Of a DNA stretch of 44,698 nucleotides, positions 33,508 through 44,698 are shown piece by piece. The DNA is from Gemmatimonadota bacterium (GTDB lineage: Bacteria > Gemmatimonadota > Gemmatimonadetes > Gemmatimonadales > Gemmatimonadaceae), in the NCBI GenBank assembly GCA_016871895.1, contig VHBO01000014.1, positions 1 to 44,698 on the forward strand, given 5' to 3'. The first letter of the stretch is position 1. The number at the start of each line of letters is the position of its first letter. The position numbers were made by a program, and so were the translations under genes. The notes under the pieces are model-generated. The model did not search any database, was not told the DNA's origin, and saw only the letters and a program-made list of their open reading frames with translations.

Positions 33508-33623
33508 AGCCCTCAAGATGCCCCCGAGCCGCCCCACCCCGTCAACCGATGCCCGCGTCCGGTCCCGTCCCCCCACCCGACCCGATCCGCATTACCTTAT
33601 CGATCCATCCGTTCCACCGTCCC

Positions 33624-36068
33624 GTGAGACCCCACCGCCTCCTCGTCCTCTGCCTCGCCCTCGTCCTCGCCGGCGCCGGTTGCGCAGGTGACGGATCCAC
33701 GGGGCTCATCGCATCGGACGGTCCCGGCGCCCTCGACGGCGAACTCCGGGTCCGCCGCTGGTCGGACGCCCGCGCCTGGCCCACGGGCCGAGTCCCCGCC
33801 GCCGGCGATACGGTCGTCATCCCCGCCGGCACCCTGATGCGGCTCGATGTCTCGCCGCCCGCGCTGGCCGGCCTCGACATCCAGGGCGTCGTCGAGTTCA
33901 ACCGCGACGAGGACCTCTCGCTCAGCACCGGCTTCATCCGCATCGAGGGCGCCCTCCGCATCGGCACCCTGCAGGCCCCATACACCAAGCGCGCCACCAT
34001 CACCCTCACCGGCCCGACCACCGGCGATGCCATCCCGGGGATGGGCACCCGCGTGATCGGTGTCTTCCCCGGCGGCGAGCTCACGATCATCGGCGAGACG
34101 CGCACCGCCTGGACTCGGCTCGATGCGTCTGCCCTCCCCGGGGCGCGCACCCTCACGATGCGCGACGACATCGACTGGCGTGCCGGGGACCGCATCGTCA
34201 TCGCCCCGTCGGGATTTGAACCGACGCAAGCCGAGCAGCGGCGCATCGGTGCCGTGAGCGGCCGCACCATCACGCTGGAAACCGGCCTGCAGCATCCGCA
34301 CTACGGCGACCTGCAGCAGATCGCGGGACGCACGGTCGACGAACGCGCCGAGGTCGGACTCCTGACGCGGAACATCCGCATCCAGGGGGCCGGCACCGGG
34401 GTCGTCGACGGCGTTCCCGTCTCCCCCGACGGGATCGGCGGGCACATCATGATCCTCGCGGGGGCCACCGCGTCCGTGCAGGGCGTCGAGCTCGCGAACA
34501 TGGGGCAACGCGGCAAGCTCGGGCACTACCCGATCCATTGGCATCTGGCCGGCGCCGTGCCGACGCAGTTCATCCGGAACAGCGCGATCTGGCGGAGCAA
34601 CAACCGCTGCGTCACCGTGCACGGCACCAAGCAGCTCGAGGTGCGTGACAACGTCTGCTACGACCACCTCGGCCACGGCTACTTCCTCGAGGACGGCGGC
34701 GAGACGCAGAACGCGCTCCACCGCAACCTCGGTGTCCTCTCGCGGCGTCCCGCCGTCGCCGATCGGCTCCTCCCGAGCGACGATCGCCCCGCCACCTTCT
34801 GGGTGACCAACCCCGACAACAGCCTCATCGGGAACGTCGCCGCCGGCTCTGACGCCTTCGGCTTCTGGTATGCGCTCCCCGACAATCCGCGCGGATTCTC
34901 CGCCGGGCAGCCCGACCGCCCGAACCGCACGCCACTCCTCGCCTTCACGAACAACGTCGCGCACTCCAATCGGCAGACCGGGCTCCACGTCGATGACGGT
35001 CCGCTCGCCGACGGCACCACCGCCACGACATCATATCAACCGCGCGCCGTCCCCTCGCAGATCGGCTCCGCCGCCGTCCCCGCATACTTCATGGGGTTCA
35101 CCGCGTACAAGAACAGTGGGCGCGGCGTCTGGCTCCGCGGCCGCGATCACTTCCTGAGTGAGGCCGTACTCGCCGACAACGGCATCGGCGCCACCTTCGC
35201 GAGCGCGATGAGCTACCTCACGAGCTCCCTCGTCGTCGGGCGCACCGCGAACAACGTCACCACGCGCGACCTCTACCGCGGCTTCGAGTTCTACGACGGC
35301 CCAGTCGGTGCGCGCGATGTCACCTTCGCCGGCTTCAGCGGGAGCGGGATCATCCCGTGGAGCGCGCTCGGCTTCAACCGGAACGGTGGCGGCGGCAACG
35401 CCTTCGCGCTGAGTACTCTCAACGGCGCGCAGAATCTCACGTTCATCGAGTCGAACGTCGTCTACATTGAGACCCCGGTCCGCACGAAGGACGGCGATAA
35501 GGCGGCGGTCTTCCAGGATCTCACCGGCTCCGTCACCGGGACCACCGGCCGCTGGGTCACCGCCAACACCCCCTTCCTGACGACCAGCGAGTGCACTCTG
35601 CGCGGCGCCTGGAACGCGCAGATCTGCCCCGGCCCGTACCTGCGCGCCGCCGTCGAGGGAAGCGGTACCTCTATGCCGATCGTCCCCGTCGACATCGTGC
35701 GCGACGGCGGCGCGACGGAGCGCTTCGTCGGTTCCGGGACGTCGACGAGCCTCGTGATCTTCGCGGCGATGCCGAGCCGGCGCTATGACCTGACGCTCGG
35801 ACAGTTCCCGACGACGCTCACCCTCCGCCTGCAGGAGGCGCGGGCCGGGGAGTGGCTCCTCTTCTCGGTCGGGTTACCCGGGCGGCCTGTCTCGGTGCTG
35901 AGCGGGAGCACCGCCGTCCCCGAGGTCGCGACCGCCGCGCTCGTCGCGACGGAGAGCACGATGGCGTTCGCGTGGGATCCGGGGCAGCAACGGCTCCACG
36001 TGAAGGTCCTCGTCACGTCGCCCACCTCCACCACGCAGGGACAGGTCACCATCCGCATCCGCCCCTGA
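33624..36068 (+). CDS. G8-domain, beta-helix surface lipoprotein resembling CEMIP-type hyaluronidases
   Basis: 814 residues from the GTG at 33624, which gives a compact lipoprotein signal with lipobox LAGAGC (Cys20); an ATG at 33549 gives a 25-residue extension. Residues about 45-165 are a G8 domain: WSDARAWPTGRVPAAGDTVV, LDVSPPALAGLDIQG, LRIGTLQAPYTKRATITL. Then EVGLLTRNIRIQG and a right-handed beta-helix with LGHYPIHWHLAGAV, NRCVTVHGTKQLEVRDNV and YDHLGHGYFLEDGGE. This order is the one seen in animal CEMIP/TMEM2 hyaluronan-degrading proteins. The C-terminal 150 residues are beta-rich and unassigned. Probably surface-exposed polysaccharide binding or cleavage; the enzyme activity is inferred from resemblance only. 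Confidence 0.8.
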   Translation: MRPHRLLVLCLALVLAGAGCAGDGSTGLIASDGPGALDGELRVRRWSDARAWPTGRVPAAGDTVVIPAGTLMRLDVSPPALAGLDIQGVVEFNRDEDLSLSTGFIRIEGALRIGTLQAPYTKRATITLTGPTTGDAIPGMGTRVIGVFPGGELTIIGETRTAWTRLDASALPGARTLTMRDDIDWRAGDRIVIAPSGFEPTQAEQRRIGAVSGRTITLETGLQHPHYGDLQQIAGRTVDERAEVGLLTRNIRIQGAGTGVVDGVPVSPDGIGGHIMILAGATASVQGVELANMGQRGKLGHYPIHWHLAGAVPTQFIRNSAIWRSNNRCVTVHGTKQLEVRDNVCYDHLGHGYFLEDGGETQNALHRNLGVLSRRPAVADRLLPSDDRPATFWVTNPDNSLIGNVAAGSDAFGFWYALPDNPRGFSAGQPDRPNRTPLLAFTNNVAHSNRQTGLHVDDGPLADGTTATTSYQPRAVPSQIGSAAVPAYFMGFTAYKNSGRGVWLRGRDHFLSEAVLADNGIGATFASAMSYLTSSLVVGRTANNVTTRDLYRGFEFYDGPVGARDVTFAGFSGSGIIPWSALGFNRNGGGGNAFALSTLNGAQNLTFIESNVVYIETPVRTKDGDKAAVFQDLTGSVTGTTGRWVTANTPFLTTSECTLRGAWNAQICPGPYLRAAVEGSGTSMPIVPVDIVRDGGATERFVGSGTSTSLVIFAAMPSRRYDLTLGQFPTTLTLRLQEARAGEWLLFSVGLPGRPVSVLSGSTAVPEVATAALVATESTMAFAWDPGQQRLHVKVLVTSPTSTTQGQVTIRIRP

Positions 36069-38319: not shown

Positions 38320-39054
38320 TCATAATACCCTGCCGGGAGATTCCACTGCACCGTCGATCGCCCACGCCACCACCGCCTCGAGGGACTCGAAAGGCCGCCA
38401 TGCCGGATCGTCCGGACGATGGATGATAATCGAACTGTCTCGATGCCGATCGATCACCGGCCACTGTACGTCGAGGATGGCACGCGCGATGTCGAGATGA
38501 AAACCGGCTTGGTCATCCGCTTGGAATTCGAAGATCGGGATGAGCTCCCGCCCGTCACGATGCGAGAACTGCCAGCGTCGCCAACGCGGATTCGGCTCTC
38601 CGGTGAGAGTCTGAACCAATGTTCCATCAGGCACCCAGGCTTCCTCGCGCAGACCGGGAATATCTTCCACGGTATCGATGTCGATCAACAATTGGAACAT
38701 CGCGTCGTCGTCAGCGATGCTCAGCCCTTGAAGCTCGACGCACATCGGACCGCTCATGAAATTGCCGAGAACCACCCACGGTACATACCAGCACACCTTC
38801 TTCCATTTATGAAACGGCTCGAAGACCGTCTCGATTTCGGGTGGTCGCCACACCGGAACGATGCGATCTTGCCGGATACGAGCACAGATCGCATCGCATA
38901 CCGCTCGGGTCAGGACGGGATGTGGGAGCCCGTCCACGACAGAAGAGTCCAGCCGCTGGCTCCTGATGAGCGAAGCGAACGTTGCGAGGCGCGCGCAACT
39001 GCGCATCGCGGCGGTCTCCCACTCCTCCGGCAGTCGTGGTCCGCTGACAATCAT
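38320..39054 (-). CDS. Protein of unknown function, accessory region
   Basis: 244 residues from ATG 39054, preceded by a strong ribosome site (GGGAGG at about 39062-39067). No signal peptide or clear membrane helix. It is rich in Trp and acidic residues; the middle is WKKVCWYVPWVVLGNFMSG, and the C-terminal part has PRWRRWQFSHRDGRELIPIF and ends with a helix (FESLEAVVAWAIDG). I do not recognise a family. Local GC is clearly lower than in the housekeeping genes. It lies downstream of a YbjN-like gene, with a hairpin between them. Confidence 0.7.
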   Translation of the reverse strand: MIVSGPRLPEEWETAAMRSCARLATFASLIRSQRLDSSVVDGLPHPVLTRAVCDAICARIRQDRIVPVWRPPEIETVFEPFHKWKKVCWYVPWVVLGNFMSGPMCVELQGLSIADDDAMFQLLIDIDTVEDIPGLREEAWVPDGTLVQTLTGEPNPRWRRWQFSHRDGRELIPIFEFQADDQAGFHLDIARAILDVQWPVIDRHRDSSIIIHRPDDPAWRPFESLEAVVAWAIDGAVESPGRVL

Positions 39055-39076
39055 CGATGCTCCCTCCCGTTGACAT

Positions 39077-39110
39077 CCGCGGGGGAGCGGCTGACGCCAC
39101 TCCCCCGCGG
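39077..39110. terminator. 11-bp perfect stem-loop between two accessory genes
   Basis: CCGCGGGGGAG at 39077-39087 pairs exactly with 39100-39110; the loop is 12 bases. It lies after the stop of the YbjN-like gene (minus strand) and just before the ribosome site of the next gene. No T-run. It may be a partial terminator or RNA processing site. Confidence 0.55.
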
Positions 39111-39148
39111 TCTCCCCACCGGTCGTCACAGCACCGGCGTGACTTATC

Positions 39149-39565
39149 TCAGAAGCGATCCTTCTGGCCGTTCGGTTCGACGATCTTCTCGAGTTCATCC
39201 GCTTCCTTCGCGACGAGATTCACGAGAGCGAAGAACAGCCGCGGGCTCACGCCGTTCGGGTTGAGATCATAACTCACCGTCACCATGCCGCGCTGGATCC
39301 TCACGGCACCGGCCTTCCTGCCCGCCATTCCCTGCAGCAGCTTGAGAGCCTTCCCCGCATCGAGCTCGGTCTCGAAGCAGATCGGCGACGAGATGTCGAA
39401 ATCAATGTAATCGGTCCCCTCGAACGTGTCCGGATCCGCATCAATGAAAACCAGTTGCGTGCGGCCGTCTGCGAACGAAAACACGACCTTGATCAATCCT
39501 CCGTCCTCGGTGATGGAGTACTTCAGCCCGCTCTGCTCCACCAGCGTCTTGATCTTTTGATGCAT
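39149..39565 (-). CDS. YbjN/type III chaperone-like fold protein
   Basis: 138 residues. The alternating helix-strand pattern (MHQKIKTLVEQSGLKY, GGLIKVVFSFADGRTQLVF, ETELDAGKALKLLQGMAG, GMVTVSYDLNPNGVS and a C-terminal helix FALVNLVAKEADELEKI) matches the YbjN/Tir-chaperone fold, which binds partner proteins. The role is unknown. GAGGA lies 10 bases upstream of the ATG. A 25-codon open frame ends 3 bases before the start. Lower GC than the window average. Confidence 0.6.
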   Translation of the reverse strand: MHQKIKTLVEQSGLKYSITEDGGLIKVVFSFADGRTQLVFIDADPDTFEGTDYIDFDISSPICFETELDAGKALKLLQGMAGRKAGAVRIQRGMVTVSYDLNPNGVSPRLFFALVNLVAKEADELEKIVEPNGQKDRF

Positions 39566-39747: not shown

Positions 39748-40809
39748 TCACGTGATCGCTCCTTTGTTGAACAGGGATGCATCGAGGGATGCATCGAAGA
39801 CCTGCTGATCCGTGGTGACGACAGCGTTAGGGGCGGCGCTGACGGCACCGAGGATTCCGTCCGCCCGCTCGGGATCCCACGCACCGATCGGCGGATGACC
39901 GAGGGACTCCTTGCCGAGATCACGACAGACTACGGGAATCACACGACGGAGGACGGCGTCGGCGAAGGCGATCGAGACGGCAGACCAAGGAGGGCGTGCT
40001 GCCCCGTGCGAGAGACGCACCTCCTCCCGACCGCCCAGCAACACCACCACCGACATCTCCACCCCAGCGCCATCGCGCTCCTGCTCGAGCCGGTGTCCGG
40101 CCCACTGGTCCCAGGGGCGGAAGGCATATGACAACGGTTCGGCGGACGGCGTCCAGTCCGGCGCCCACCATCCGTCGCGGCAGAAGACGACGGCGCCCAC
40201 AGCGATCGCGGACCCACTACGGAGGGTCACGGGCGAGCTGTACCAGAGCGGTCCTCGCCCGTCCCAGTCGTAGACCGATGCCGTCGCGGCCTCGAATCGC
40301 GGCCACGTCATCGTCGTGCCATCAGCCGAGATCACGAGCGCATCGGTGCCGCGGCAATCGGCCGTCACCTCGATCCATTCCGGCGCCCCATCCACCTCGG
40401 CGACCAGCCGGTCGGCCGCGGATGGGTCCCGTTCGACCCCGAGCAGGTGTGCCACCAGATCACCGGCGGGCGGGGATGCCTGCGGGGATGCCGCTGGCGA
40501 TGCACCCGTGCGGTCCGACTCCCGCAGCGCCGGTATGCCTGCCAGTCGCTCATATTCATCCGGCGCCGCACGGACCACCTCGGCGTCCGTGTCGAGTCTG
40601 AAGCGGAGCACATCGTCACTGTCGGCGTCGACTAACGCATCGCCGATTCGGAGGCCGGCCTCAGCCATCGCCGTCCGGATGCGGTCGACCACCTTGACGC
40701 CGCGCCGCTTGGCGCCGAACCACTCCAACAATTCGCGCAACGGGACCTCGACCGCCTCTTCAGACTCCAGTCGGCGCCGCAACGCCGTGAGATGCGATAC
40801 CGCGGTCAT
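39748..40809 (-). CDS. 353-residue partner protein of the large helicase
   Basis: The ATG at 40809 overlaps the helicase stop (ATGA at 40806-40809). The first 65 residues (VEVPLRELLEWFGAKRRG, VVDRIRTAMAEAGL, DVLRFRL) resemble a short helix-rich module that I recall at the N-terminus of other restriction- or defence-type proteins, possibly DNA-binding. A linker with a repeated Ala-Ser-Pro (ASPAASPQASPP) follows, then a domain of about 220 residues with VYDWDGRGPLWYSS, GWWAPDWTPSAEPLSYAF and VVVLLGGREEVRLSHG, which I cannot assign. No signal peptide or membrane helix. Tight coupling to the helicase suggests that the two act together. Confidence 0.75.
   Translation of the reverse strand: MTAVSHLTALRRRLESEEAVEVPLRELLEWFGAKRRGVKVVDRIRTAMAEAGLRIGDALVDADSDDVLRFRLDTDAEVVRAAPDEYERLAGIPALRESDRTGASPAASPQASPPAGDLVAHLLGVERDPSAADRLVAEVDGAPEWIEVTADCRGTDALVISADGTTMTWPRFEAATASVYDWDGRGPLWYSSPVTLRSGSAIAVGAVVFCRDGWWAPDWTPSAEPLSYAFRPWDQWAGHRLEQERDGAGVEMSVVVLLGGREEVRLSHGAARPPWSAVSIAFADAVLRRVIPVVCRDLGKESLGHPPIGAWDPERADGILGAVSAAPNAVVTTDQQVFDASLDASLFNKGAIT
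39774..39797. repeat. 12-bp tandem repeat at the 3' end of the partner gene
   Basis: GGGATGCATCGA twice in a row. On the minus strand it encodes a doubled Leu-Asp-Ala-Ser near the C-terminus, in frame. Confidence 0.85.
40471..40506. repeat. Degenerate 12-bp tandem repeat in the partner gene linker
   Basis: Three 12-base units sharing a GATGC core (40471, 40483, 40495). On the minus strand they encode the repeated Ala-Ser-Pro linker between the two domains. Confidence 0.65.
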
Positions 40810-43800
40810 CGGGCGACCTCATAGCGATCACCGACCTGTCGGAGCACGCCATCGGCGACGGCGGACCGGAGGTGCGTGAGGAGCTCGCCGCGGATGGCGG
40901 TGGTGACCCGAAGGATGCCGAAGAGCTCAGCGAGTGCATCGACGATGTCGCCATCCGCGACGCTCAGACCCTTGGTCGCGATCTCGAGGAGCGCGTTCCG
41001 TACCTCCTCCGGTGCGATGCATTCGAGGGGGCGGTCACAGCCCGGCGGCGTCCGGCGGAACCCGCGCCACGTGCTCGGGGTAAAGTCGGGCGGCCAGACG
41101 AAGGTCCGCTCGCCGGCGGTACGGAGCCGCTCGCGTGGCAGCACCGCGGCGATCGCGGCGATGCGATCGCCGCGGACGCGCTCGAGACCGAAGCGACGAC
41201 CGAGGAGTCGACCGAGCCGCGTCAACTCGGTCGGCCCCTCGACCGCGAGGATCTCATCCGCCGCGCGGATGAGCACCCCGGCACCGGGACGCGCGATCGC
41301 CGCCTCCAGCGCCGCCGTGTCCCCGAGATCGCCGAGCCGGACCTCGTACGGCCGGAACTCCGGCGCGGCGAGGCGGACATCCGCGGCGGGCGTCAGCACG
41401 ACGCGCCCGGCGAGGGTCTTGCGACTCCCCACGGCCGAGACCCCCTCGGCCGGCGTCGCGGGCGCGGCGACCGTCGTCGCCTTCGCGTGCAGCCGATCCA
41501 CGAGCGCGCGCGCGTCCGCGATCACGCGCTCGGGTTCCACGAGCCATTGCGGGAGCCAGATCCGGAAGGTCGTCTCCCACTTCATCAGACGCTCGAGCAC
41601 GCTCACCGGGAGCCCCTCGCGGTCCTGCACCGTGCGCCGTCGCGCATAGGTCGGGCCGTCGAGGAGCACGGCGACGAGATGACGGTCCGGCGCCTCGGGA
41701 TGCGCGAGTGCGAGGTCCACCTTGAAGCTCGAGAGGCCGATGTCCGTGTCGACCTGCAGCCCCGCGGCGCGAAGCGCCTCCGCGAGGGCCTCCCGATGAG
41801 CATCGGGCCCGTGCTGCCCGAGGGCAGCGACATCCCCCAATCGCGAGACGCCGTCCCGGGCGAGCTCCATATACGCCCGCAGGTGACGGACGCCGTCGGC
41901 GCCGGCGCCCACGCGCGCGAGATCGATCTCCTCGGGTTCGACCGACGAGAAGAGCATCACCTCCTGCCGCGCTCGCGTGACCGCCACATTCCAGCGGCGT
42001 TCGCCGCCGGCGCGGTTGAGCGGACCGAAGTTCATCGGGAACTCGCCGTCTTGGTCGCGGCCGAACCCGATGCTGATCAGGATGACGTCCCGCTCGTCGC
42101 CCTGCACGTTCTCCAGGTTCTTGACGAAGAGCCGCTGCTCGGGATCCTCCTCCTTGAGCACGGCGTCAAGCCGCGTGTCGCCGAGTGCGGCCGCCTCCAG
42201 ACGCTCGGAGATCAGGTCCGCCTGATTGATATTGAAGGTGACGACGCCCACACTCGCCGCCCGGTCGCCGGCGTGCCGGAGCCGCGCCTGGATCTCCGCG
42301 ACGACGGCGTCCGCCTCCTTCGGATTCGTCGCGGTCCGGCCACGATCGAAGACGGCATCCGGCACCTTGCACCACCGGACCCCGGCGGCACCGCCGACCA
42401 CGCGCGGCGGTGGGAACGACGCGAGCCGACCCTCATAGTACTTGGCGTTGGAGAAGGCGATGAGTGATTCCGCCTGACTCCGATAATGCCACGACAGCCA
42501 GATCCGATCGATGTTCGCGCCGACGCACTCGGAGAGGATGCTCTCGAGGTCCTCGGGCACCGCCGTCTCGACCCCATCGATCGGTGCCGGCGCGTCCTCT
42601 TCCTCCGCTCCGCCGGAGCCGAAGAACGCGGTGGGAGGCATCTGCCGACTGTCGCCGACCACGACCAGCGACCGCCCGCGGGCGATCGCACCGATCGCAT
42701 CGGGGACACTGACCTGTGACGCCTCGTCGAAGATCACGAGATCGAAGTCGAGCACACCGGGCTCGATGAACTGCGCGACGGAATCCGGGCTCATCAGGAA
42801 GCAGGGCGTCAACTCGCCGATCGCCTTGCAATACTGTTTGAGGAGCTGGCGGATGGTGAGCTTCACCTTGCGTGCGTCGAGCACATTGCGTTTGAGGTTC
42901 CCGACCTCACCGAACGCCTCGCCGGGTTTGAACCGCCGGCTGCGCAGCAGGCGGTCGGGGATGATCTCACGCAGCATCTGCGCATCGGTCGTATGCAGCA
43001 CCTGATAGTTCGTCAGCTGGCGCTGGTGTTCCATTCCATCGAACCTGTCGAGCCGGGAGGCCCGCATCCGTTCGTCGAATGCGGTCCGCGCATTCCCCCG
43101 CTCGACCGCCGAAGCGAGTTCCGCGGCCGTGAGTCGACCGGCCTGTAACGCGCCGCGCGCGTCGATCCCGTGTGCCGTGAGCCGATCTAAGGCCGTGGCG
43201 ACCACGCTCCAGCGCCGGAGCTGTAGGAACCCGCGCTCGGCGTCCCCCTGCCACTTCGGGAGCCGATCGCCGATGGTGCCGATGGCGCCGCCCTCGCGCA
43301 GCAGGGCGGCGAACGCCGCATCAGAGACGCCGAGCCGGGTGCGGAACGCCACCAACCGCTCGAGCAGCGTTTCGATGGCGTGCCCGACCTCGACGGTCGG
43401 TGGCAACACGCGGAGCAACCGGTCGAGCGCCGGGCCTGCCGGGCCCTGCGCCGCCTCGATGAGGGCACGCCGCGCGCGCACGATGCGCTCGATGATCACC
43501 ACCGGCTCCGGCGCGAGGGCCGTCCAGTCGGGTGGCAGCGTCTCACCGAACCACGCCCGTGCCTGCGTGGTGACCTCGGCGACTCGGGTCGCGAGGTCGG
43601 CCGCCTCCCCGAGGGCCCGAATCACCTCGGCCTCGGTCGCTCCGCTCTTCCGGAGATGCGGCGCGATGGCGGCCATCGCCACGCGGACCCGACCGCCTCG
43701 TCCGAGGAGGAAGGACGTGCTCGCCGTTTCGAGCGCAGCGCGAAGTTTCGCCGGGTCTGCCGTGTGGATGGACGGATGGAACCACTGCGCCACGGCGGTC

Positions 43801-44698
43801 ACCGAGCGGTTTACCGTCTGCAGCGTCTCGAGCAGGCGGGCCCGATCGGCGTCGGCGTTCGCGGAGAGGGCAAGGATCCGGAGACGCTGTTCGCCGGAGC
43901 AGTCCGCGAGTGCACGCTGGAGCGTGCCGACGGCCGCAAGCGCGGCCGGATCGAGCGGGCGCAGGACGTCGACCACCGAGGCATCTAGCGCGGTGAGTGC
44001 GGACCGCAGAGCGTCCACGGCCTCCCGCAGCGTGTCGGAGTCGATCTGATCGGCGACGGCGCCGTCCTCCACGAAGCTCCATGGATTGCCGCCCGGACCG
44101 GCGGTGGCCGTCGCATATCGATCCGCGAAGTCGGAGAGCAGCTTCCGGACCTCGGTGAACGCCTCCGGTGTCAGGGCGCCGCCCGCCGGGCGCAGTTCCG
44201 ACCCATCGCCGAGGCTCGCGAGTCGCTGGCGCGCCGTCCATACGGAGAAGCCGTGCACCCCCGCCTCGTGCAAGACCTTCGCGTAGGTCCGCAACGTCCC
44301 CATCCGTTCGGTGAGATCGCGTCGCGTACCTTCCCAGTCCGCCGGATCACCGTTGGCGATGCGGGTGAAGGAGCTCGCCAGCTGTGTCTTCAGCGACTCG
44401 AGGTCGGTGCCCTTCCCGTGGACGTCGAGACAGAAGGGACCGAGCCCGACGGCGGCGAGTCGGTTCTTCACGACGGTCAGTGCCGCCCGCTTCTCCGCGA
44501 CAAAGAGGACGCGTTTCCCGGCGGCGAGGGCGTTGGCGATCATATTGGTAATCGTCTGCGACTTCCCGGTGCCCGGCGGTCCCTCGAGCACGAACGAAGC
44601 GCCCTTGGCGGCGGCCACGATGGCCTCGAGCTGGGTGCCGTCGCAGGGGATCGGACAGAAGACTGGTTCATCGTCGAGCGTCGCGAGGTCGGGGAGCG
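40806..44698 (-). CDS. Very large SF1 (DNA2/Upf1-like) helicase with MTES_1575-type nuclease-like and DUF3320 domains (5' end off the window)
   Basis: 1296 residues are visible; the N-terminus, probably a DUF4011-type region, lies beyond the right edge. Walker A is EGPPGTGKSQTITNM at about 44585-44540. A long helical insertion follows, then Walker B VIFDEASQVSVPDA near 42740, VVGDSRQMPPTAFF, LSWHYRSQAESLIAF, LENVQGDERDVILISIGF and NVAVTRARQEVMLFSS: all superfamily 1 motifs. Next comes a restriction-endonuclease-like domain (KVDLALAHPEAPDRHL, AVLLDGPTYARRRTVQDREG, IWLPQWL) in which the usual ECDG is LLDG. The last 150 residues resemble DUF3320 (LECIAPEEVRNALLEIATKG). Such proteins occur in bacterial defence regions. 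It overlaps the 353-residue gene by 4 bases. Confidence 0.9.
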   Translation of the reverse strand, partial: LPDLATLDDEPVFCPIPCDGTQLEAIVAAAKGASFVLEGPPGTGKSQTITNMIANALAAGKRVLFVAEKRAALTVVKNRLAAVGLGPFCLDVHGKGTDLESLKTQLASSFTRIANGDPADWEGTRRDLTERMGTLRTYAKVLHEAGVHGFSVWTARQRLASLGDGSELRPAGGALTPEAFTEVRKLLSDFADRYATATAGPGGNPWSFVEDGAVADQIDSDTLREAVDALRSALTALDASVVDVLRPLDPAALAAVGTLQRALADCSGEQRLRILALSANADADRARLLETLQTVNRSVTAVAQWFHPSIHTADPAKLRAALETASTSFLLGRGGRVRVAMAAIAPHLRKSGATEAEVIRALGEAADLATRVAEVTTQARAWFGETLPPDWTALAPEPVVIIERIVRARRALIEAAQGPAGPALDRLLRVLPPTVEVGHAIETLLERLVAFRTRLGVSDAAFAALLREGGAIGTIGDRLPKWQGDAERGFLQLRRWSVVATALDRLTAHGIDARGALQAGRLTAAELASAVERGNARTAFDERMRASRLDRFDGMEHQRQLTNYQVLHTTDAQMLREIIPDRLLRSRRFKPGEAFGEVGNLKRNVLDARKVKLTIRQLLKQYCKAIGELTPCFLMSPDSVAQFIEPGVLDFDLVIFDEASQVSVPDAIGAIARGRSLVVVGDSRQMPPTAFFGSGGAEEEDAPAPIDGVETAVPEDLESILSECVGANIDRIWLSWHYRSQAESLIAFSNAKYYEGRLASFPPPRVVGGAAGVRWCKVPDAVFDRGRTATNPKEADAVVAEIQARLRHAGDRAASVGVVTFNINQADLISERLEAAALGDTRLDAVLKEEDPEQRLFVKNLENVQGDERDVILISIGFGRDQDGEFPMNFGPLNRAGGERRWNVAVTRARQEVMLFSSVEPEEIDLARVGAGADGVRHLRAYMELARDGVSRLGDVAALGQHGPDAHREALAEALRAAGLQVDTDIGLSSFKVDLALAHPEAPDRHLVAVLLDGPTYARRRTVQDREGLPVSVLERLMKWETTFRIWLPQWLVEPERVIADARALVDRLHAKATTVAAPATPAEGVSAVGSRKTLAGRVVLTPAADVRLAAPEFRPYEVRLGDLGDTAALEAAIARPGAGVLIRAADEILAVEGPTELTRLGRLLGRRFGLERVRGDRIAAIAAVLPRERLRTAGERTFVWPPDFTPSTWRGFRRTPPGCDRPLECIAPEEVRNALLEIATKGLSVADGDIVDALAELFGILRVTTAIRGELLTHLRSAVADGVLRQVGDRYEVAR

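Follow-up and report, generated by a model that had tools for sequence, protein, structure and literature searches.

A ProA-type giant helicase with an overlapping partner gene in a Gemmatimonadota contig: a candidate defence variant with a proposed, separately encoded effector

At one end of a contig from a Gemmatimonadota bacterium, a very large helicase gene overlaps the start of a gene for a 353-aa protein, and the question is whether the two work together in defence and whether such a system has already been described. The window, that is, the whole stretch of DNA analysed (44,698 nucleotides), is the whole contig, and the helicase gene is therefore cut by the contig end. The assembly is incomplete (96% complete), and a search of the same genome with the N-terminus of the closest relative as query did not find the N-terminal half of the helicase elsewhere. 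The features considered here are as follows.

40806..44696, minus strand: helicase ORF, the C-terminal 1296 aa of a ProA/PDC-S37-type giant SF1 helicase, 5′ end open
41514..41792, minus strand: MTES_1575 (Vsr-like) REase-fold domain, helicase residues 969-1061, with a non-canonical site (Pfam match, alignment, model)
41160..41279, minus strand: DUF3320-like winged-helix stretch, helicase residues 1140-1179 (under the Pfam cut-off)
40806..40809, minus strand: ATGA overlap of the helicase stop and the partner start (sequence)
39748..40809, minus strand: 353-aa partner protein (no Pfam or PADLOC match)
40570..40809, minus strand: putative portable, winged-helix-like module at the N-terminus of the partner, about residues 1-80, LRELLEWFGAKRRG
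39748..40467, minus strand: C-terminal region of the partner, about residues 115-353 (no family, no relative)
39149..39565, minus strand: 138-aa gene, 57.8% GC (homologue beside the closest related helicase)
38320..39198, minus strand: gene of up to 292 aa, about 60% GC, start ATG at 39198 or about 39054

A helicase of the ProA/PDC-S37 family with an altered nuclease site

The sequence-only reading had described an SF1 helicase with nuclease-like and DUF3320 domains. The helicase and nuclease parts were recovered above the Pfam cut-offs (AAA_11, 57.9 bits; AAA_12, 54.9 bits; MTES_1575 REase, 52 bits), whereas the DUF3320 match stayed below its own (19.2 bits vs 25). Against the NCBIfam profile ProA (NF058533, 'anti-phage protein ProA') the helicase scored 1063.9 bits, residues 7-1263 aligning with profile positions 639-1903 of 1903, up to the C-terminus of the profile; this score lies under the curated whole-protein cut-off of 1500 bits, as the contig does not reach the first 638 profile positions. 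The PADLOC profile PDC-S37 matched with 808 bits (residues 18-1292 to profile positions 294-1544 of 1550). Helicase matches at E ≤ 1e-20 occurred in 31 of 395 genomes of the phylum, whose ProA-like full-length proteins scored at most 1396.8 bits, under the ProA cut-off. Judged by these profile matches, the helicase is a member of an already described defence family, so that the proposal of an undescribed system stands for the defence-type character of the helicase and falls for its novelty. That the helicase itself is of a defence type is held much more firmly than the overall reading given below. A literature search on ProA returned no paper recognisable as its source.

The closest relative among the matches listed, hereafter the sister, was found on a contig titled 'uncultured proteobacterium isolate ErkenSummer_bin-6785' (locus L152, also retrieved as L241). 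Its full-length helicase of 2077 aa, in which DUF4011 is present, scored 1720.7 bits against ProA, over the cut-off of 1500, and is 48.5% identical to the window helicase over 1096 aligned residues. A tree (128 tips, 447 columns), from which tips covering fewer than 380 columns and duplicate loci were omitted, pairs the two with a support of 0.994 and places both within a larger branch (88 tips, 0.998), which includes 86 of the pattern-fetched loci listed (see below); the window helicase is closer to this branch than to the helicases of its own phylum. The two genomes seem to come from different phyla, since the genomes listed for the sister's phylum (a partial list) include none from the phylum of the window. 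In the sister's class, 13 of 274 genomes matched and the sister's own (G403) was the only close one, no second close helicase being found there; the motif shared by the window and the sister was found in 0 viral contigs.

Alignment with relatives from the phylum revealed three substitutions in the REase-fold domain of the window, namely E968R (helix E), E1011L and H1018A, with D994 and D1013 kept, and thus the canonical acidic/His site of an active Vsr/PD-(D/E)XK nuclease is not kept. The five positions compared (helix E, D, E, D, H; loci without all five columns were dropped) are read by us as the likely catalytic residues. They spell EDEDH in 25 of the 27 scorable loci of phylum relatives, and EDEDH (8), FDEDH (4) or KDLDE (1) in 13 loci of the sister's class; both the window and the sister have RDLDA. 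A pattern made from the altered site, which the window shares with a Microbacterium plasmid, retrieved at least 117 stretches from genome contigs, and L occupied the third position in 104/104 scorable loci among the pattern matches listed, a set selected for LLDG.

An alignment-based model of the domain (mean pLDDT 81.1) has the alpha-beta-beta-beta-alpha-beta order, and its best Foldseek matches were mostly restriction-endonuclease-like, which is suggestive only, since the top E value was 0.022, of a nuclease-like domain that keeps the restriction-endonuclease fold. Within the altered-site branch 17 columns are invariant across 73 sequences, and this conservation argues for a domain that is altered rather than decaying. 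A large branch, Microbacterium testaceum StLB037 included, would then keep the nuclease fold while differing at three of the five canonical positions, which calls its mode of DNA action into question. The locus of that strain (L170), from which we take the Pfam family MTES_1575 to have been named, has an altered site (LLDG, no canonical His) and a HEPN motif, RNKHAH, that looks intact.

A partner with a portable N-terminal module

The ATGA overlap and both ORFs were confirmed from the sequence. The partner is plausibly a real gene: its GC by codon position is 0.73/0.54/0.77, and the two remaining frames of the strand contain 8 and 10 stops. The region had been noted to lie by other accessory genes of atypical composition; such a composition does not hold for the helicase (70% GC) or the partner (68.1%), both normal for the window (69.7%), and does hold for the next two genes, of 57.8% and about 60% GC.

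The N-terminal module (residues 1-80) was modelled with a pLDDT of about 79-90 in the order helix-strand-helix-helix-strand-strand. Its structural neighbours include Stn1, PurR, GntR-type regulators and ScpB-like proteins, the matched domains of which we take to be winged helices; because Z is at most 4.5 this likeness is weak, and the module may be called winged-helix-like only in that sense. Searched with an iterated profile, the loci collected, in part fetched by similarity to the module, yielded 14 distinct proteins that carry it: besides the window and L241, the carriers are DS-11-type CBS proteins, GmrSD_N proteins, a DnaQ-type exonuclease with a BRCT-like end and short stand-alone ORFs. 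The earlier remark that this part of the partner recalls restriction-type proteins was thus borne out by its GmrSD_N, DS-11-type and DnaQ-type carriers.

From about residue 81 onwards the partner has no assignment. The C-terminal region proved as unassignable as it had first appeared, with no family or credible relative and a predicted structure mostly under a pLDDT of 50. Foldseek gave nothing at E ≤ 0.001 for the whole partner model, and the best match of the partner in the PDB had an E value of 0.93. Among the genomes searched, the full-length partner occurs in its own genome only; no relative was detected in 64 pattern stretches from genome contigs, nor in viral contigs, plasmids or phages. 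The partner query matched 28 of 395 phylum genomes at E ≤ 0.01, and in the matches inspected the similarity is confined to the N-terminal module or to short stretches; a DUF1963 protein (match to residues 69-155, E 3.3e-4) was taken as a chance match. The query gave a single match in its own genome. In the sister's phylum 7 of 398 genomes matched, and the one match of the sister is the gene after its helicase.

The sister locus and the surroundings of related helicases

In L241 a 1503-aa ORF starts 103 bases after the helicase on the same strand and combines TIR, module, ankyrin, WD40 and SWIB parts. Its TIR_2 domain (residues 2-121, 79.7 bits), of a kind linked to cell suicide, resembles PADLOC TIR effectors. 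In a database of the five L241 proteins, the module of the partner matched residues 456-527 of this ORF (41.7% identity, E 2e-9), the 138-aa gene matched one of 139 aa (L241:11300-11719; 32%, E 9e-10), which lies to the other side and on the opposite strand, and the 292-aa gene resembled residues 1228-1393 of the 1503-aa protein (23.5% over 187, E 6e-9). Searched against the whole sister genome, the module had its only match at E ≤ 0.001 there (E 1.3e-6), the 138-aa gene its only match (E 1.9e-6) and the 292-aa gene the better of two (E 4.5e-5), all at the helicase locus. All three rare elements have their best or sole copy at the helicase in both genomes. Among 99 relatives of the window, own genome included, the 138-aa gene occurs in 4 and the 292-aa gene in 2, the other match of the latter being weak; two congeneric relatives of the 138-aa gene sit among housekeeping genes, and neither gene had a plasmid match. 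No noteworthy match links the C-terminal region of the partner with the 1503-aa protein. The idea that this region derives from a diverged 292-aa domain found no support (BLAST E 2.2 at best; hhalign probability 0.4%). An exchange of HEPN for TIR was also considered; HEPN is present in 8 of 40 branch ORFs with their own start inside the listed locus, and since its lack is usual in the branch this idea is weakened. A protein with TrkA_N and RyR domains (L241:11765-13459) adjoins the sister cassette; RyR domains occur in other bacterial conflict systems. In the window, an 839-aa ORF (33549-36068, plus strand), by eye secreted and beta-helix-like, adjoins the accessory region.

Beyond this pair, the helicase loci compared lacked the module. 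Neither it nor an ATGA partner was seen in the other 30 loci from the phylum, several of them cut by contig or locus ends (in L105 the helicase overlaps an unrelated ORF by 29 bases), and the pattern loci listed (at least 117) lack the module in every case other than L152. The association therefore holds for the closest pair and for no other locus compared, and ProA-type helicases would normally work without the module. In its full length the partner was found in no other genome searched, which taken literally refutes the earlier suggestion of a conserved pair; the N-terminal module, however, comes after the helicase in the one closest locus, where two further genes of the window also have relatives. 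A dead nuclease as the general explanation of the partner found no support, the altered-site loci listed being without the module, except L152.

A helicase is encoded in 107 of the 117 pattern loci listed, most from Actinomycetota by their titles; the 10 without one were dropped. Of 93 helicase 3′ ends among them, 50 are followed by a gene of the same strand and 37 by one of the opposite strand, 2 have no further gene and 4 reach the edge; gene calling relied on a simple GC-position script, and short neighbours are therefore uncertain. An overlap of 4 bases with the next gene was seen at 5 of the 93 ends, the genes being HIRAN-like, DnaQ-type, DUF726, alcohol-dehydrogenase and one unassigned, and an ATGA-type overlap alone is weak evidence for pairing. 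A DnaQ-type exonuclease gene follows the ProA-type helicase in a few listed loci, mostly Microbacterium (L167:2826-4109, L170:6930-8000, L153:2307-3617 and L200:4448-5668; L193:5514-6728 on the opposite strand); those of L153 and L167, which were scanned whole, have a BRCT-like end, and that of L167 is a PADLOC candidate, PDC-S48. In the phylum of the window, a module-bearing DnaQ-BRCT protein is encoded at L059:10001-11188. A 3041-aa ORF (L103:5446-14571) has the ProA-type helicase at its C-terminus, preceded by about 1700 residues.

Interpretation and relation to known systems

We somewhat favour the reading that the pair and its neighbours constitute a rare ProA-type variant, in which a helicase sensor and motor is served by a swappable effector or adaptor encoded in trans; it is drawn from two loci, and this number, with the presence of the 138-aa family also in housekeeping surroundings, counts against it. 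The helicase (DUF4011, seen only in the sister, then SF1 helicase, REase fold and winged helix) would engage invading DNA, recognising it as has been proposed for the MTES_1575-type giants (PMC3710099). The partner would act in trans as effector or adaptor, docking through its winged-helix-like module, and the business end would be changeable: TIR with ankyrin, WD40 and SWIB in the sister, the unassigned domain in the window. The same cassette probably includes the 138-aa and 292-aa genes as accessory parts, and we infer phage restriction or abortive infection as the outcome. A more specific form, in which the LRELL-WFG-RRG module is a plug-in adaptor coupling ProA-type helicases to interchangeable trans effectors (TIR in the sister, a putative effector domain of another kind in the window) in a modular two-to-four-gene version of what is listed as a one-protein system, we regard as rather doubtful. 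Should the effector variant hold, a branch of a helicase defence listed as a single protein would have its killing part as a separate, swappable gene, and the last 240 residues of the partner would be a new effector domain.

The helicase could instead be a complete one-gene ProA defence, to which an unrelated accessory gene has become translationally coupled by chance. The presence of the module in 0/30 phylum loci and 0/116 other pattern loci listed, the varied genes that follow the 93 listed 3′ ends (37 on the opposite strand) and the unrelated genes in the five 4-base overlaps all count for this explanation, but in a second genome the sister helicase is again accompanied by the three rare elements, and we consider chance coupling a less probable account, one that still carries real weight. 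A partner that serves as a regulator or as an immunity/antitoxin-like brake, its winged helix repressing the operon or restraining the helicase, would fit the fold of the module and the small second gene of an overlapping pair. However, in the sister the module forms one protein with TIR, ankyrin, WD40 and SWIB, and elsewhere it stands with GmrSD_N, DnaQ-type exonuclease and CBS, company of the effector rather than the regulator type, and the partner is encoded after the helicase, not before it; we therefore think a brake quite improbable.

Several known systems offer points of comparison. In Hachiman HamAB and other helicase-plus-effector systems the helicase is the DNA sensor and the second protein the effector (PMC12278908); the likeness to the window is one of working model alone, and no sequence relation is claimed. 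DS-11, a tested anti-phage system made of one protein with CBS and HEPN domains (PMC13092281), has the N-terminal module in common with the partner (residues 25-78 to DS-11 profile 1-54, E 1.5e-4), whereas the partner has no CBS or HEPN family and reaches 21 bits against a cut-off of 260. Hhe (NF042953), the second-best match of the window helicase, has the DUF4011-type helicase core in common, but the 525.7 bits of the window helicase, whose N-terminus is missing, are far below the curated cut-off of 2000, as are the 621.5 bits of the full-length sister, and the ProA score of the window is twice its Hhe score.

The MTES_1575-type giants (HEPN-transglutaminase-SF1 helicase-Vsr-wHTH; Anantharaman 2013, PMC3710099) are proposed to recognise invading DNA directly via the C-terminal wHTH, without modification genes. 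Like the window, they have an SF1 helicase, a Vsr-type REase fold and a C-terminal wHTH and no methylase; the window carries this core with AAA_11, AAA_12 and MTES_1575 over their cut-offs, and the M. testaceum StLB037 locus falls in the same branch. HEPN belongs to the type as described, whereas the sister has no match to the HEPN profile, and that paper regards the Vsr domain as a DNase, whereas the branch of the window has changes at the canonical positions. The closest known systems are ProA and PDC-S37, which the helicase matches throughout the part present; their models consist of one protein and do not include the partner, whereas in the window a module-bearing partner follows the helicase.
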